DNA from: a bacterium Ga0077546 | GTDB taxonomy: Bacteria > Cyanobacteriota > Vampirovibrionia > Obscuribacterales > Obscuribacteraceae | DNA length: 5,066 nt | Assembly: GCA_001464165.1 (NCBI GenBank) | Contig: LNEX01000230.1 | Coordinates: 1-5,066, forward strand | Direction: 5' to 3' | Part shown: piece after piece, positions 1-5,066 of the stretch | Position numbering within the stretch: position 1 is the first letter of the stretch | Layout of the letters: each line of letters starts with the position of its first letter | Program-made: the position numbers and the translations under genes | Notes under the pieces: generated by a model | Seen by the model: only the letters and a program-made list of their open reading frames with translations | Told to the model about the DNA's origin: nothing | Databases searched by the model: none

Positions 1-494
1 AATTGATCAAGGGAGACGAACTCAATCTTGCCGGCCTTGGTGACGGAGCAGGTAATCTGGTAGGCCATGTCACCATGCGCAAGCGAGCCATTACAGAGAA
101 AGGCAAGGCTTGGGCGGGAGTGACTATTATTGATGAAGCCATGCTAGAAACAGCTCAGCGACTTGTCAAAGCGCTCTCTTGGCGCGGACCGCTTGAGGTT
201 GAAGCAATTAGAGGCGAAGACGGTCGCATCTTTCTAATTGAAATCAATCCACGCTTTCCATCGTGGATTTACCTAAGTCAGGCCGTCAATCGCAATCTTC
301 CCATTGCCGTCCTCAAGCTTCTAGACAAGCGCACTGACCTTGGGCTCGCAGCCCCAACATCAGGATACTTCTTCATCCGCCACGCTCAAGAGCTAGTGCT
401 CGACCTGTCGGAATTTGAATCAGTTTTGGTCAACGGTCGCAGCGGTCCTGTGCAAAATGCTGAACTAAGGGCCATCAAGGAAAAATCGGCATAG
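1..494 (+). CDS. ATP-grasp domain protein, C-terminal part (5' end outside window)
   Basis: Cut by the window edge; the reading frame is open from the first full codon at position 3 and ends at TAG 492-494, giving 163 visible residues. The TTG at position 3 is only where the window begins, not a credible start, because the visible part begins inside a domain. Numbering from that codon, residues 60-90 carry the ATP-grasp C-terminal signature: a strand with GPLEVEAI (62-69), then FLIEINPRFPSW (77-88), where E80 and N82 match the metal-binding E-x-N pair and R84 the following conserved arginine. Upstream, GHVTMRKRAITEKGKAWAG (21-39) fits the middle of the fold. ATP-grasp enzymes join a carboxylate to an amine or thiol through an acyl-phosphate. 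The closest flavour is the carbamoyl-phosphate-synthase-like/amino-acid-ligase group, but the substrate cannot be read from this fragment. It is followed after 108 bp by the decarboxylase gene on the same strand, so shared function is likely but inferred. Confidence 0.85.
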   Translation, partial: LIKGDELNLAGLGDGAGNLVGHVTMRKRAITEKGKAWAGVTIIDEAMLETAQRLVKALSWRGPLEVEAIRGEDGRIFLIEINPRFPSWIYLSQAVNRNLPIAVLKLLDKRTDLGLAAPTSGYFFIRHAQELVLDLSEFESVLVNGRSGPVQNAELRAIKEKSA

Positions 495-602: not shown

Positions 603-1991
603 ATGCCTAGCAACAATTCAAACAGTATGGTTTGGGAACCGCCACTGATTCAGCCTCACCGCATTGGCGAAATCAACAAATTTGGCCGTGCCCGCCCCAA
701 AGAAAAACGTGTAAATCATGTATTTGATGTTGACATCGAACAACTAAAAGCCCTGTACGGCTCACCCCTATTCGTCACTAGCGAAAGCCGTTTGCGACAA
801 AATGTGCGCCAATTAACGAGAGCATTCGAAGTACGCTACGGCAATGTAAGCCACGGCTGGTCTTACAAAACAAACTATATCAGTGCCGTTTGCAACATCA
901 TGCATCAAGAGGGCTCTCTGGCAGAAGTAGTCTCAGCATTTGAATATGAGAAAGCTAGACAGTTAGGAGTTCCCGGAGACAAAATTATCTTCAACGGCCC
1001 GAACAAAGCCAGAAGAATTCTAGAGCGCGCCATCGCTGACGGTGCACAGATAAACATCGACCATCTTGACGAACTACACCTAATTGAGTCTGTCGCTAGT
1101 GCCCAAGGGCGCGTCGCCTCAGTAGGCCTGCGGCTCAATTTCGATACCGGTTTCAGCGAGCCCTGGAGTCGTTTTGGTTTCAATATTGAAACAGGCCAAG
1201 CACACCAAGCCGCCAAAGAAGTGGTGCTAAGCGAACACCTAAGATTGAAGGGCCTACACAGCCACATTGGTACATTTATTCTTGAGCCTCGCGCTTACAG
1301 CGAACAAGTAAAAATTATGTGTAAGTTTATGCGCGATCTAGAGGGGAGAGAGGAAGTCTGCATCGATACAATCGACCTAGGTGGCGGTCTGCCATCGCAC
1401 AATGCCTTGCAAGGGATCTACCTCCCACCAGATCAAGTGGTGCCATCAATTGGTGAGTATGCAGAAGCAATCTGCAATACCCTTGTGGAAGAAACCATGT
1501 ACCGCACTCGCACCAACAGACCAATGCCTAAACTAATAATTGAGAGCGGCAGAGCAGTAGTGGATGATGCCCAAGTCTTGCTCACTTCGGTAGTCGGGAG
1601 GAAACGCTTACCAGATGGCAGGCAAGCGGCCATTCTCGACGCTGGTACAAATTTACTTTTTACAGCCTATTGGTACAACCACAAAGTGGAATTGGCAGCC
1701 CCGTGCCGGGGTTTGCCAGAAGAAACCGTGCTCTATGGGCCACTGTGCATGAACATCGACGTAGTGAGAAATTCTATCCAGCTGCCCCCCTTGCAAGTTG
1801 GTGACACTATGGTGATTAGCCCCACTGGAGCATACAACAACACTCAGTGGATGCAATTTATAGAATATCGCCCTAACGTCGTGCTTGTGCATGAGGGCGG
1901 CGAAGTTTCAGTTATCCGCGAAGCCGAGAATCTAGAAGTAATGACGTCACAAGACCGACTACCAGAGCACCTCGCCTTGCCCTTTCTTTAA
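603..1991 (+). CDS. fold-type III PLP-dependent decarboxylase (Orn/DAP/Arg decarboxylase family 2)
   Basis: 462 residues, complete, with GGAG 6 bp before the ATG. The family has an alanine-racemase-like barrel that binds pyridoxal phosphate and a C-terminal beta domain completing the active site at a dimer interface. Visible motifs: SYKTNY (87-92) with K89 the likely PLP lysine; SRFGF (189-193); HSHIGT (219-224); the glycine-rich phosphate loop DLGGG (258-262); ESGR (315-318); DAGTN (346-350); GPLCMNID (379-386) with the catalytic-type C382 and D386; and GAY (409-411). The barrel spans about residues 50-320 and the beta domain about 320-430. The DAG and GAY segments resemble diaminopimelate decarboxylase more than ornithine decarboxylase. 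ESGR replaces the usual EPGR, and Met383 replaces the acidic residue that normally follows the active-site Cys, so the substrate is probably not standard DAP or ornithine; lysA should not be assigned. The first ~45 residues are an extension without recognised motif. It ends 12 bp before the transporter-peptidase gene. Confidence 0.9.
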   Translation: MPSNNSNSMVWEPPLIQPHRIGEINKFGRARPKEKRVNHVFDVDIEQLKALYGSPLFVTSESRLRQNVRQLTRAFEVRYGNVSHGWSYKTNYISAVCNIMHQEGSLAEVVSAFEYEKARQLGVPGDKIIFNGPNKARRILERAIADGAQINIDHLDELHLIESVASAQGRVASVGLRLNFDTGFSEPWSRFGFNIETGQAHQAAKEVVLSEHLRLKGLHSHIGTFILEPRAYSEQVKIMCKFMRDLEGREEVCIDTIDLGGGLPSHNALQGIYLPPDQVVPSIGEYAEAICNTLVEETMYRTRTNRPMPKLIIESGRAVVDDAQVLLTSVVGRKRLPDGRQAAILDAGTNLLFTAYWYNHKVELAAPCRGLPEETVLYGPLCMNIDVVRNSIQLPPLQVGDTMVISPTGAYNNTQWMQFIEYRPNVVLVHEGGEVSVIREAENLEVMTSQDRLPEHLALPFL

Positions 1992-1994
1992 GGA
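1990..1994 (+). promoter_or_regulatory. ribosome binding site overlapping the decarboxylase stop codon
   Basis: AAGGA shares its first two bases with the TAA stop (1989-1991) of the decarboxylase and lies 9 bp before the ATG at 2004. The overlap implies that the two genes are read from one transcript and suggests translational coupling (inference). Confidence 0.7.
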
Positions 1995-2003
1995 ACCACT
2001 ACC

Positions 2004-4421
2004 ATGCTAAAAGCATTTGCCAAAGTTTTCAGCGGCTACGGCTCGTTTTTCGGACTGCCCCATCCACTCTCTCGCTTTCTTCTGTTTGCCTGCACAATGC
2101 TCCACCCCGCTACAGGCTTAAGCGGCCTTGAATGCGCCGCTCTAGTTGTCGTGACCAGAAAGATGCTGTCATTTCCGGCAGGCGGTGAAATCGAAATAGT
2201 CAACGGCCTGCTCTTCGGCATGCTCATTGGCTCGCTCTACCAACCTAGCCTGGCATCAATTACTGTGCTCGCCTTAGGCGCAGTGCTAATAGTATTAGCC
2301 ACAGTTTGTCTCAGCGACACACTAGGTAAAGCCTGGCGGCTACCAGTGCTCGGCCTACCCTATGTCTTGACCAGTTACTTAATGCTGCCGATTGCCTCAC
2401 ACCTGGGCATGACATCATTTTTAGCACCATCTTTAGCAACATCTTTAGCAACACATGCAGCACCACATGCGGCACTATCAACATCACCTTTTGCAATATC
2501 TCCCTTTACAATTCAAGCATTAGGACAATCGCATCTCTTTAGCAATCTGGAATTTAGACTAGATTGGCCCTCCTGGCTAGTAGCTCCAGCAGGTGAAAGT
2601 GCATTAAATCTGTTTGCCCCGCTGGGCTCGCTCTATTTCAATGGCACCCCGCTGGGTGGTTTGATAGTCTTTGTTGCCTTCGCCATTTCTTCTCGCTACC
2701 TTGCCATACTAGCTCTGGCAGCCAGCATCACCTGCACCGTATTTTTACAGCAGTACTACACACCCATCTATCCCAGCATACTAGCCGTCAGCTCCCTTCC
2801 GCTATTAATAGCGCAGATGAATGGTGTACTGACTGCTGGAATAATTGGTGGCCTCTATACTGTGCCATCTATTCGCAGCATTTTAGTTGCTATCAGTTCA
2901 GGACTTCTGGCCTGCTTAATCACAGTATTCTTGGAAAATACATTCTGGAGCAATTCGTTTCCACCACTGGCGCTACCATTTGTGCTTTCCACATACATAG
3001 TCCTAATTGGCCTCAGCAGCAGACGTGGCGGTCCCTGGCTGAGGTTCTGGCTAATTACGCCAGCACTACCGGAGCAAAGCCTCGAGCGTCTCACAATTGC
3101 CAGAGCCCGGGGCCTTGACTTGCACAGCGTTGCTCTGCGCAGCCCGGTTTCAGGAAGTTGGAAAATCTACCAAGGAGTAGACGGCGCCTACACCCACAAA
3201 AATCAGTGGCGCTACGCCCTTGACCTAATACAAACAGAAAACCATCGCAGCTATAAAGAAAGCGGAACACTCTTGAGCGACTACTTTTCTTATGGCAAAG
3301 CTGTGCTCTCACCTGGGTGGGGCACTGTAGTGAGCCTAGTGAACAGCTGCCCTGACAATCAACCAGGCGAAGTTGACTTGGTCAACAATTGGGGAAACTA
3401 CATTCTTATGCAGCTCGACGACGGCCCCTATGCCATGCTCGCCCATCTACAGCGCGGTAGTGTTAGAGTAGCCGCCCATTCCAGAGTAGCGCCGGGGCAA
3501 CTTCTTGCCCTCTGCGGCAATTCCGGGCGCTCGCCACAGCCCCACTTACATATTCATGTACAAACGCAACCAGAAATTGGTAGCCCAACAGTGCCTTTTC
3601 ATTTCTGCCACGTGCTTGTCACAACTCAAGACGGCAGCACCACCTACCAGCTTAATGCGAGCCCGAAAGAGAATGAGACAATTAAGGCTCCGGCCCGCAA
3701 TGCCGCACTAGCCAGAGCATTAAACCTGAACGTGGGTCGCCGTTTTGAGTATTCAGTGAGTCAAGATGATCGCAATTACAAGAGCCGTTACAATTACAAG
3801 CTTGGTACTAAGTCCGAGAATGATACTAAATCCGAGAATGACACTAAGCTAGATCTAAAAGCAATCAGCCTGTCACGCGAAAAGCTAACAGTAGCTCTCG
3901 ATTTAAATGGCCAATTCTCGCTAGAAACTGGCCCCGACTGTCAGGCAAAAACCAGTTTCACAGCCAGCGAGGACCTGATCGCCTTCTTTGGCCGAAACAA
4001 CAAAGCCAGTCAGTTTCTCGATACATTCGTCTTAGCAGTTGGACTCACTCCTCTAGCAGAAGGCAATTTGCAATGGCAAGACAAAGTTCCGGTACGCTTG
4101 TTGCCATTTCCGTGGGCGGTCAAACTGCTCTGGGCCATGCTGCATCCCTTCAGCCCCTGCCTAAATAGCGAATATATACGCACGTGGAACTCAAAAGAAA
4201 TGATTTGGATCCAAACAGCAAATTACAACCTGCAAGTTTTTAACTTCAACTACTCTTACCGAACAGAGGCACGGATTTCAGAGCTAAGCGGCCTGCTTTC
4301 AATCGAATCGTTCGATCAAAAGGGGCAAAGACTCTTAAAAGCGACGCTTGATGGGGTTGGTATAAGGGAAGATAATGGCATTCCCGAAATTAGTTTTGAA
4401 GCGAGCAGAAGCATTAGTTAG
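2004..4421 (+). CDS. urea-transporter-like membrane domain fused to M23 metallopeptidase
   Basis: 805 residues, complete. Residues ~10-340 are hydrophobic and form two related halves, as in the UT family of urea channels: GYGSFFGLPHPLSRFLLFA (11-29) parallels LGSLYFNGTPLGGLIVFVA (207-225), IVNGLLFGMLIGSLYQPS (65-82) parallels MNGVLTAGIIGGLYTVPS (272-289), and LPVLGLPYVLTSYLML (113-128) parallels LALPFVLSTYIVLI (322-335). The halves are linked by an Ala/Ser/Thr-rich segment (~137-165) made partly of a 12-bp repeat. Residues ~378-535 are an M23/LytM domain: THKNQWRYALDL (397-408) supplies H398 and D407, AHL (480-482) supplies H481, and GNSGRSPQPHLHIH (505-518) supplies the H-L-H pair H514/H516. 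All expected zinc and catalytic residues are present, so it should be an active peptidase, presumably facing the periplasm and cutting peptidoglycan cross-links or a related peptide. Residues ~550-805 match nothing I recognise; they look soluble and mixed beta-rich after a charged repeat linker (591-615). UT channels conduct urea passively, but the actual solute here is unknown. Translation is probably coupled to the decarboxylase upstream. Confidence 0.9.
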   Translation: MLKAFAKVFSGYGSFFGLPHPLSRFLLFACTMLHPATGLSGLECAALVVVTRKMLSFPAGGEIEIVNGLLFGMLIGSLYQPSLASITVLALGAVLIVLATVCLSDTLGKAWRLPVLGLPYVLTSYLMLPIASHLGMTSFLAPSLATSLATHAAPHAALSTSPFAISPFTIQALGQSHLFSNLEFRLDWPSWLVAPAGESALNLFAPLGSLYFNGTPLGGLIVFVAFAISSRYLAILALAASITCTVFLQQYYTPIYPSILAVSSLPLLIAQMNGVLTAGIIGGLYTVPSIRSILVAISSGLLACLITVFLENTFWSNSFPPLALPFVLSTYIVLIGLSSRRGGPWLRFWLITPALPEQSLERLTIARARGLDLHSVALRSPVSGSWKIYQGVDGAYTHKNQWRYALDLIQTENHRSYKESGTLLSDYFSYGKAVLSPGWGTVVSLVNSCPDNQPGEVDLVNNWGNYILMQLDDGPYAMLAHLQRGSVRVAAHSRVAPGQLLALCGNSGRSPQPHLHIHVQTQPEIGSPTVPFHFCHVLVTTQDGSTTYQLNASPKENETIKAPARNAALARALNLNVGRRFEYSVSQDDRNYKSRYNYKLGTKSENDTKSENDTKLDLKAISLSREKLTVALDLNGQFSLETGPDCQAKTSFTASEDLIAFFGRNNKASQFLDTFVLAVGLTPLAEGNLQWQDKVPVRLLPFPWAVKLLWAMLHPFSPCLNSEYIRTWNSKEMIWIQTANYNLQVFNFNYSYRTEARISELSGLLSIESFDQKGQRLLKATLDGVGIREDNGIPEISFEASRSIS
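2416..2475 (+). repeat. in-frame 12-bp tandem repeat, five units
   Basis: Five consecutive 12-bp units: CATTTTTAGCAC, CATCTTTAGCAA twice (2428-2439 and 2440-2451, identical), CACATGCAGCAC and CACATGCGGCAC. They encode the four-residue series FLAP, SLAT, SLAT, HAAP, HAAL (offset by one base against the codons) in the segment linking the two halves of the transporter domain. Because the unit is a multiple of three, gain or loss of copies keeps the reading frame. Confidence 0.8.
3774..3848 (+). repeat. in-frame 18-bp periodic repeat (hexapeptide linker)
   Basis: Two near-identical 18-bp units at 3807-3824 and 3825-3842 (two differences) plus a 6-bp partial third copy encode TKSEND-TKSEND-TK. 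Just upstream, AATTACAAG occurs at 3774-3782 and 3792-3800, also 18 bp apart, encoding NYKSRY-NYKLGT. The stretch is therefore periodic at six residues (591-615), highly charged and probably an unstructured linker between the peptidase domain and the C-terminal region. Confidence 0.75.
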
Positions 4422-4482
4422 CAATTTAATTACGTGGCTGAAAGTGCAATCTTAAGAGAAATTGACAGAGAGACAGGGAACA

Positions 4483-4488
4483 GAGAGG
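4483..4488 (+). promoter_or_regulatory. ribosome binding site deciding the GTG start of the kinase
   Basis: GAGAGG lies 6 bp before GTG 4495. The frame has no ATG before 4939, which is beyond both membrane helices. The only other upstream candidate is TTG 4462, which has no good purine-rich site at proper distance. Confidence 0.6.
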
Positions 4489-4494
4489 CAAAGA

Positions 4495-5066
4495 GTGGTC
4501 TCGCATCCAAAGCCAGCGACACCGGACAGTTCAAAGATAGCAGCTACAGACGGCCTCAGTAAGAGTAGCAGTCAGCGGCTACTATTCATTTGCGGCTGCG
4601 CCATCATATGCGGTGGCACAGCGTTCTTCAGCACACAGAGCATTCAAAGCGTATTCAAAAGTCTTTACGAGGGATTTGATGGTAATAGCTTTGCACAAAA
4701 GACCTCCGACAGAACCCTTGCACCATCTTACATCGAGCAAGCAATTTGGCTAAGCTCATCCCTTTCATTTGCTGCCCTGTTATGCTTAGGATACGGCCTG
4801 CAACGGCAAAGCGAATCAAGAACAAAAGTCTTGACCAAGCTTCTTTTGAGCCTCAAAGATCGGAGCCAGTTGGCCTCTGTCGGCACAGACGCTGTCAATT
4901 GCAAAAGTCCTGACAACAAAGACAAAAGCTTCAGTGGCATGGACGGTAGTGACAAAGCTCTGGCCGAGGCCTTCAACAGTCTAGCCACAAGCTTAAGAGA
5001 CTTAGACAGCGGTCACAGACAGTGGGTAGCTGATACATCTCACGAGCTGCGAACACCAATAGCGGT
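4495..5066 (+). CDS. sensor histidine kinase, N-terminal part (3' end outside window)
   Basis: The frame is open from the TAA at 4453-4455 to the window end; from GTG 4495 it gives 190 residues. A polar N-terminus of ~28 residues precedes a first membrane helix (LLFICGCAIICGGTAFF, 29-45). A short outside segment of about 37 residues (46-82) and a second helix (about 83-102) follow. Residues ~103-175 occupy the place of a HAMP domain: the end, ALAEAFNSLATSLRDLD, matches the second HAMP helix, but the first helix lacks the usual proline and the connector is a polar stretch rich in Asp, Lys and Ser. The H-box follows, WVADTSHELRTPIAV, with phospho-acceptor His183 (codon 5041-5043). The dimerisation remainder and ATPase domain lie beyond the window. 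Such kinases autophosphorylate on His and pass the phosphate to a response regulator, not seen here. It starts 73 bp after the transporter-peptidase gene, so co-transcription is possible but unproven. The signal is unknown; so small an outside loop argues against a large ligand-binding sensor domain. Confidence 0.85.
   Translation, partial: MVSHPKPATPDSSKIAATDGLSKSSSQRLLFICGCAIICGGTAFFSTQSIQSVFKSLYEGFDGNSFAQKTSDRTLAPSYIEQAIWLSSSLSFAALLCLGYGLQRQSESRTKVLTKLLLSLKDRSQLASVGTDAVNCKSPDNKDKSFSGMDGSDKALAEAFNSLATSLRDLDSGHRQWVADTSHELRTPIA

Follow-up and report, generated by a model that had tools for sequence, protein, structure and literature searches.

Genes and Features of the Locus

The window, that is, the entire stretch of 5,066 nucleotides that was analyzed, contains the end of an ATP-grasp ligase gene, a decarboxylase gene, a long gene encoding a urea transporter (UT) domain joined to an M23 metallopeptidase domain (UT-M23), and the start of a sensor histidine kinase gene (Table 1); no RNA family was found within the window above the gathering score.

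Table 1. Features of the window, with the basis of each assignment.
Feature	Position	Strand	Basis and remarks
ATP-grasp ligase, C-terminal part	3..494	+	Start outside the window; ATPgrasp_Ter 2e-6, just under the cut-off (fragment)
Fold-III PLP decarboxylase, 462 aa	603..1991	+	Nearest solved relative is N-citrylornithine decarboxylase; Orn_Arg_deC_N 6.7e-29
AAGGA, ribosome-binding-site-like	1990..1994	+	Overlaps the decarboxylase stop codon; read from the sequence
UT-M23 fusion protein, 805 aa	2004..4421	+	Pfam and structure model
UT-fold pore domain, residues 10–335	2031..3008	+	Pfam, profile search, model, filter alignment
Post-channel segment, residues 336–375, K/R-rich	3009..3128	+	P356-E357 aligns with the C-terminal PE motif of solved UTs
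M23 metallopeptidase domain, approximately residues 376–540	3129..3623	+	H398, D407, H481, H514, H516; Pfam and model
C-terminal beta-rich domain, approximately residues 541–805	3624..4418	+	No Pfam match in the window protein; weakly like LolA/YmcC/RseB-type folds
Sensor histidine kinase, start	4462..5064	+	Runs off the window, start codon uncertain; HisKA 0.0052 (fragment); BaeS_SmeS 4.3e-8, under the cut-off

Pfam assigns residues 10–335 of the fusion protein to the UT family (PF03253) and residues 430–522 to the M23 family (PF01551), and the AlphaFold2 model shows both folds with high confidence. These checks confirm what an earlier note on this DNA had read from the sequence, namely, a UT-type fold of two halves at the N-terminus and a complete set of M23 residues; the five residues of this set (His398, Asp407, His481, His514, and His516) are invariant in all 87 aligned relatives. 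The note also mentions other bacterial UT proteins with an M23 tail, and both Pfam domains are present in 66 out of 67 database relatives of the window protein; the closest named one (80% identity) is from a Candidatus Obscuribacterales MAG, which makes this group the most likely origin of the window.

Across one-per-species genomes, 404 stretches with relatives were confirmed and 80 of them fetched; the scan patterns sit in the M23 domain, and hence some of the 324 unfetched stretches may encode other M23 proteins. According to the record titles, the hosts of the 80 fetched relatives include Melainabacteria, Gammaproteobacteria, Accumulibacter, Rhodocyclaceae, Rhodospirillaceae, Mariprofundus and other Zetaproteobacteria, Magnetococcales, Nitrospirae, Eremiobacterota, Geothrix, and Desulfobulbaceae. 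Judged by these domain matches, the UT-M23 fusion is real and widespread.

The Pore Domain and Urea Metabolism

The fusions share with the urea transporters of PF03253 (dvUT, 3K3F; UT-B, 4EZC; UT-A2, 8XD7) the fold, the two inverted halves, the predicted orientation, the pore leucines, and the terminal PE motif, but differ from them in the lost polar urea filter, the addition of C-terminal M23 and beta domains, and hosts mostly devoid of urease. According to the available part of the dvUT description, the filter comprises So with Glu187, Val188, Phe190, and Leu293; Sm with Leu84, Thr130, Leu247, and Thr294; and Si with Phe80 and Leu129 (PMC4357013). Gln24 and Val25 were placed in the dvUT Si by our own alignment, based on the UT-A2 list in the same part of that source.

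In the window protein, dvUT positions Gln24, Glu187, Thr130, and Thr294 correspond to Ser14, Ser209, Gly117, and Ala323, respectively. Across the aligned fusions, Gln24 is retained in none out of 86, Gln or Glu at position 187 in two out of 87, Thr130 in none out of 87, and Thr294 in four out of 87; both threonines never occur together (zero out of 87), these positions being mostly occupied by Gly, Ser, or Ala. In stand-alone UTs, the respective residues are retained in 14 out of 14, 13 out of 15, 12 out of 15, and 13 out of 15 proteins, with the full polar set present in 12 out of 15. The pore leucines Leu84 and Leu247 are kept in 84 and 86 of the 87 fusions, respectively, and the window protein scores 40.1 bits with the NCBI equivalog TIGR03441 (urea_trans_yut), far below the cut-off of 274.6. 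On this alignment, the UT-M23 pore is a UT fold that has lost the urea filter.

The genomic context was assessed in 42 fusion-bearing genomes of our choice, the hosts of 42 of the 80 loci. Urease alpha was above the cut-off in five of them, with one further weak match, and urea carboxylase in one (G031, also urease-positive); many of these genomes are metagenome-assembled, and some of the absences (37 out of 42 for urease) may be assembly gaps. Among the stand-alone-UT genomes, urease was above the cut-off in 14 out of 15, and the fifteenth, G021, also has a fusion.

Thus, urea, suggested earlier as the solute, disagrees with both the filter residues and the urease count. The UT fold is what speaks for a urea channel serving nitrogen nutrition with an accessory peptidase, and such a role seems highly improbable: it was rejected on the filter residues and on the urease and urea carboxylase counts. 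It is further opposed by mutational data, since Thr to Val substitutions at the equivalent sites impair the passage of urea, water, or ammonia in mammalian UTs, as stated in the available part of the source (PMC12171576), although this is not the same test, the fusions mostly having Gly, Ser, or Ala there. The papers found on a "urea transporter" of Zetaproteobacteria, in the parts available, concern the Urt ABC system, not UT, and were set aside. Named family members carry the label "urea transporter" in the sources, despite the lost filter and 37 out of 42 hosts having no urease match above the cut-off, and therefore the nitrogen metabolism of the hosts may be misread.

Predicted Location of the M23 Domain

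Like the M23 metallopeptidases LytM, lysostaphin, DipM, and ShyA, the fusion has the M23 fold and the metal and catalytic residues; unlike them, its M23 domain follows a polytopic channel and is predicted to be cytosolic. The HxxxD spacing is usual for M23 metallopeptidases, whereas the fusion has nine residues from His398 to Asp407, which sets it apart from LytM-type enzymes.

In order to place the domain relative to the membrane, Lys and Arg residues were counted on both sides of the channel. The side of the termini contains on average 12.43 of them (98 residues on average) versus 0.95 on the other side (72 residues), and with the termini excluded the loops still have 5.60 (42 residues) versus 0.95, in both cases in 87 out of 87 sequences. 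The hydropathy profile has no likely transmembrane segment beyond residue 350, and in the profile search the UT homology extends up to the M23 domain, ending at the same C-terminal end as in animal UTs. In UT-A1, according to the available part of the source, two UT domains are joined through an intracellular loop (PMC12171576). The positive charge on the side of the termini in all 87 sequences and the UT homology reaching the M23 domain therefore yield a cytosolic prediction for the M23 domain, and the C-terminal domain is likewise predicted to be cytosolic.

The earlier note had suggested an M23 domain at the outer face of the membrane, cutting peptidoglycan in the periplasm and coupled to solute passage via the UT pore. 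This agrees with the fact that the M23 domains of the fusions match best to murein hydrolases, and with the C-terminal domain, whose weak resemblance to periplasmic, LolA-like folds points against the cytosol, so that the two lines of evidence, the charge count and this resemblance, point to opposite compartments. Among 44 members, the C-terminal domain matched two Pfam families, each in one member only (E about 0.01). On the other side, the charge count opposes the periplasmic location in 87 out of 87 sequences, the homology continues to the end that is cytosolic in UTs, beyond which no transmembrane segment follows, the number of soluble cysteines is odd in 50 out of 87 fusions, and Cys429 and Cys504 do not strictly occur together (51 of the 87 fusions have both, 30 have one, and six have neither). 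Taking all this into account, we regard a periplasmic M23 domain as unlikely. The note itself had named a topology leaving M23 in the cytoplasm as evidence against its proposal, and this is the topology predicted from the charge and the UT homology. Its coupling of urea passage to wall cutting at the outer face thus finds no support, given the predicted cytosolic M23 domain, the lost filter, and the rarity of urease; a peptide-releasing step linked to the pore, also suggested there, lacks support at the outer face but could still take place at the inner side.

A search of plasmids matched only the M23 part of the fusion, among the best 15 of 41 and the best eight of 46 records. Among the stand-alone M23 relatives found on plasmids are haloarchaeal proteins (e.g., in L096, L097, and L101, the protein of the latter being without a clear transmembrane segment by hydropathy). 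When the stand-alone relatives were inspected by hydropathy, their charge patterns looked ambiguous by eye and indicate no topology. Haloarchaea are not known to have murein, and a peptidase of this type therefore need not act on the murein of its own host. Archaeal M23 enzymes can serve as weapons against bacteria, as stated in the available part of one study (PMC12352652).

A Four-Gene Cassette Ending in UT-M23

Clustering of neighboring open reading frames, followed by searches with HMMs made from the clusters, identified a cassette with the order PqqD-like protein, ATP-grasp ligase, PLP enzyme similar to N-citrylornithine decarboxylase, and, as the last gene, UT-M23. Sixty of the 80 loci include no less than 4.2 kb of upstream DNA, and every one of them (60 out of 60) has all three partners there. 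Frame starts follow the cassette order on the same strand in 58 of these 60; in the two others, L041 and L055, an overlap between the PqqD and ligase frames reverses the order by frame start. The constant presence of three cytosolic-type enzymes in these loci also counts against the periplasmic location of M23.

Since the HMMs had been trained on the same 80 loci, further loci were tested. All three partners were found in three out of three fusion loci outside the training set (L117–L119) and also in the later loci L126, L127, L128, L139, and L140, while in L129 and L130 the upstream side is ended by the contig end. None of the three partners was found in any of 15 stand-alone-UT neighborhoods of 7–13 kb each (L102–L116; 14 of the 19 stand-alone cases and the second UT of G021). 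Two loci (L124 in G085, L125 in G112) have UT-M23 but none of the three partner genes in 13 kb, and the whole-genome search listed no ATP-grasp ligase among its matches in either genome. Conversely, L120, L121, and L122 have the three partner genes but no UT or M23 match in the surrounding 8.5–10.9 kb. Hence, the tie of UT-M23 to the three enzyme genes is strong but, with these five exceptions, not absolute. In L120 and L122, the neighboring genes look by eye as if they encode a formylglycine-enzyme-like protein and an RND-type pump. Locus L118 seems to contain two tandem cassettes, a partial decarboxylase with UT-M23 being followed by a second PqqD–ligase–decarboxylase set that is ended by the contig end.

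Co-occurrence was considered in 398 Pseudomonadota genomes, of which at least 36 have the ligase (E at most 1e-60). A UT frame of at least 550 aa was taken to stand for the fusion, M23 itself being checked only in the fetched loci. Of the 32 genomes with such a frame, at least 29 have the ligase; among the matches listed, none of the 19 stand-alone-UT genomes does. In many genomes at most five first-pass candidates were scored, so that some ligases may have been missed, and Fisher values overstate the evidence because the genomes share ancestry. The three long-UT genomes without the ligase among the matches listed are G208 (contig cut, with a partial decarboxylase present), G085, and G112. The seven other ligase genomes are G249, G297, and G212, where a UT next to the ligase runs into the contig end; G230, with a cut contig; and G101, G163, and G200, which have no UT.

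Partner Proteins

The PqqD family (PF05402) was above the cut-off in three out of three proteins scanned, one of them a TetR–PqqD fusion, and ATPgrasp_Ter in both full-length ligases scanned; the orthologue L001:1513-2646 exceeds the cut-offs of both ATPgrasp_Ter and ATP-grasp_3. Among solved structures, the decarboxylase is closest to N-citrylornithine decarboxylase (7kh2, 2.5e-52), followed by LysA (2.6e-39) and BtrK (3e-22); the motifs GPxCM..D and GAYN are common to it and 7kh2, each being conserved in 93% or more of the 74 rows. It scores below the cut-offs of both TIGR01048 lysA (221.7 versus 297.9 bits) and the FslC model NF041039 (213.5 versus 500 bits). Its identity as the housekeeping LysA was rejected, as a separate LysA match above the cut-off is present in 32 out of 42 genomes; eight of the remaining ten, which have no separate LysA above the cut-off, have more than one weaker match.

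The cassette resembles the rhizoferrin pathway (synthetase and FslC) in the closeness of its decarboxylase to 7kh2 and in the adjacency of ligase and decarboxylase. It differs in having the PqqD-like protein, UT-M23, a decarboxylase under the FslC cut-off, and an ATP-grasp ligase where the rhizoferrin pathway uses a siderophore synthetase. In butirosin biosynthesis (BtrI/BtrJ/BtrK), an amino acid is loaded by a ligase and processed in its carrier-bound form by a fold-III decarboxylase; unlike there, no carrier protein was recognized in the cassette, and BtrK (2J66) matches the cassette decarboxylase only distantly. As in PqqD-type RiPP clusters, a PqqD/RRE-like domain adjoins modifying enzymes, but no precursor peptide was found, and visual inspection of the shared gene clusters shown revealed no radical SAM or YcaO gene. 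Among 953 small open reading frames within 2.5 kb, no conserved precursor peptide was seen across distant loci, which speaks against a RiPP with a local precursor. The largest group (six loci) was rejected as a peptide, as it reads as conserved DNA upstream of the TetR–PqqD gene; the same scan recovered PqqD-like frames in L021, L039, and L043 (partial in the latter).

Among the 66 loci with at least 2.2 kb downstream, 40 have a barrel-like protein nearby and 39 have a TPR protein; 35 have both and 22 have neither, the search covering both flanks (in L037 both lie upstream). The barrel-like protein of 305 residues, which we read as a probable outer-membrane barrel, had no family match in the one member scanned. 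By eye, N-termini are signal-peptide-like in ten out of ten TPR proteins shown and in most of ten barrel-like ones, which would suit a periplasmic M23 domain. The TPR and barrel-like proteins accompany many of the Proteobacterial loci, an arrangement like that of a path through the envelope; in most Melainabacterial loci a histidine kinase and a response regulator take their place. A TetR-like protein is fused to the PqqD-like domain in 15 loci, in one case confirmed by Pfam; these are L028:6673-7476 and 14 other loci of cluster 8, and the short conserved DNA upstream of it in six loci may be its operator.

The two-component genes of Melainabacteria and the TetR–PqqD fusions might suggest a sensing role, with the UT domain as a non-conducting membrane receptor and M23 as a signaling protease. 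However, the pore leucines are conserved almost throughout, and the regulators differ by lineage while the three enzymes are constant, which makes a sensor or regulator quite improbable.

Possible Role of the Cassette

The three cytosolic-type enzymes, the peptidase with its predicted cytosolic location, and the pore without a filter together lead us to favor a decarboxylated-product pathway. The ligase would join an amino acid either to an acid or to a peptide that the PqqD-like protein binds; the decarboxylase would take a carboxyl group off the ligase product; the M23 domain would release the product by cleavage where the pore opens to the cytosol; and the pore, altered and no longer of the urea type, would let this small product cross the inner membrane, with export as the favored direction. 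The product may be a decarboxylated amide or a peptide-derived amine, the option that we favor. We suggest tentatively, with somewhat less than even confidence, that UT-M23 is the membrane part of a four-gene cassette making a small decarboxylated product, released by M23 and passed by the altered pore. The first links of this scheme rest on gene neighborhood and homology; the substrate, release, direction, export, and product are what we infer.

Apart from a periplasmic M23 domain, the main competing explanation is salvage, in which the pore would import small amides or peptides, the cytosolic M23 would cut them, and the ligase and decarboxylase would recycle the pieces. Its anatomy is identical to that of export, the results are compatible with either direction, and the barrel and TPR partners suit import as well; but a ligase adjoining a decarboxylase looks biosynthetic, and a UT-type pore is narrow for peptides. 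We consider salvage improbable.

The export scheme would have a broader implication, which is more doubtful: a widespread biosynthetic cassette would have adapted a urea-channel fold to serve as the dedicated exit pore of a decarboxylated small molecule built on a peptide scaffold, and a murein-peptidase fold, shifted to the cytosolic side, would release this molecule at the pore mouth. Should the predicted topology hold, the fusion would tie a channel to a cytosolic M23 peptidase, and the cassette would represent a pathway to a metabolite common to Melainabacteria, several Proteobacterial groups, and other phyla. The individual domains are already known, save for the C-terminal one with no Pfam family; no description of the fusion or the cassette was found in open-licence papers, and the cassette is apparently undescribed.

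Other UT-Domain Architectures

Near the cassette, L117:4075-5652(-), L118:1897-3567(-), and L119:2900-4948(-) encode proteins with TPR repeats between two UT-like halves, Pfam finding UT and TPR in the two scanned; by eye, the first half of the L117 protein seems to keep the Gln and Thr filter residues. Eight UT proteins of 551–615 aa (L131–L138), found in eight out of 292 genomes from the phylum of G004, have a C-terminal EF-hand-like region and no M23 match, EF-hands being identified by Pfam in both proteins scanned. They have Gln at the positions of Gln24 and Glu187 in eight out of eight cases and both threonines in five out of eight, and are possibly calcium-regulated urea channels.
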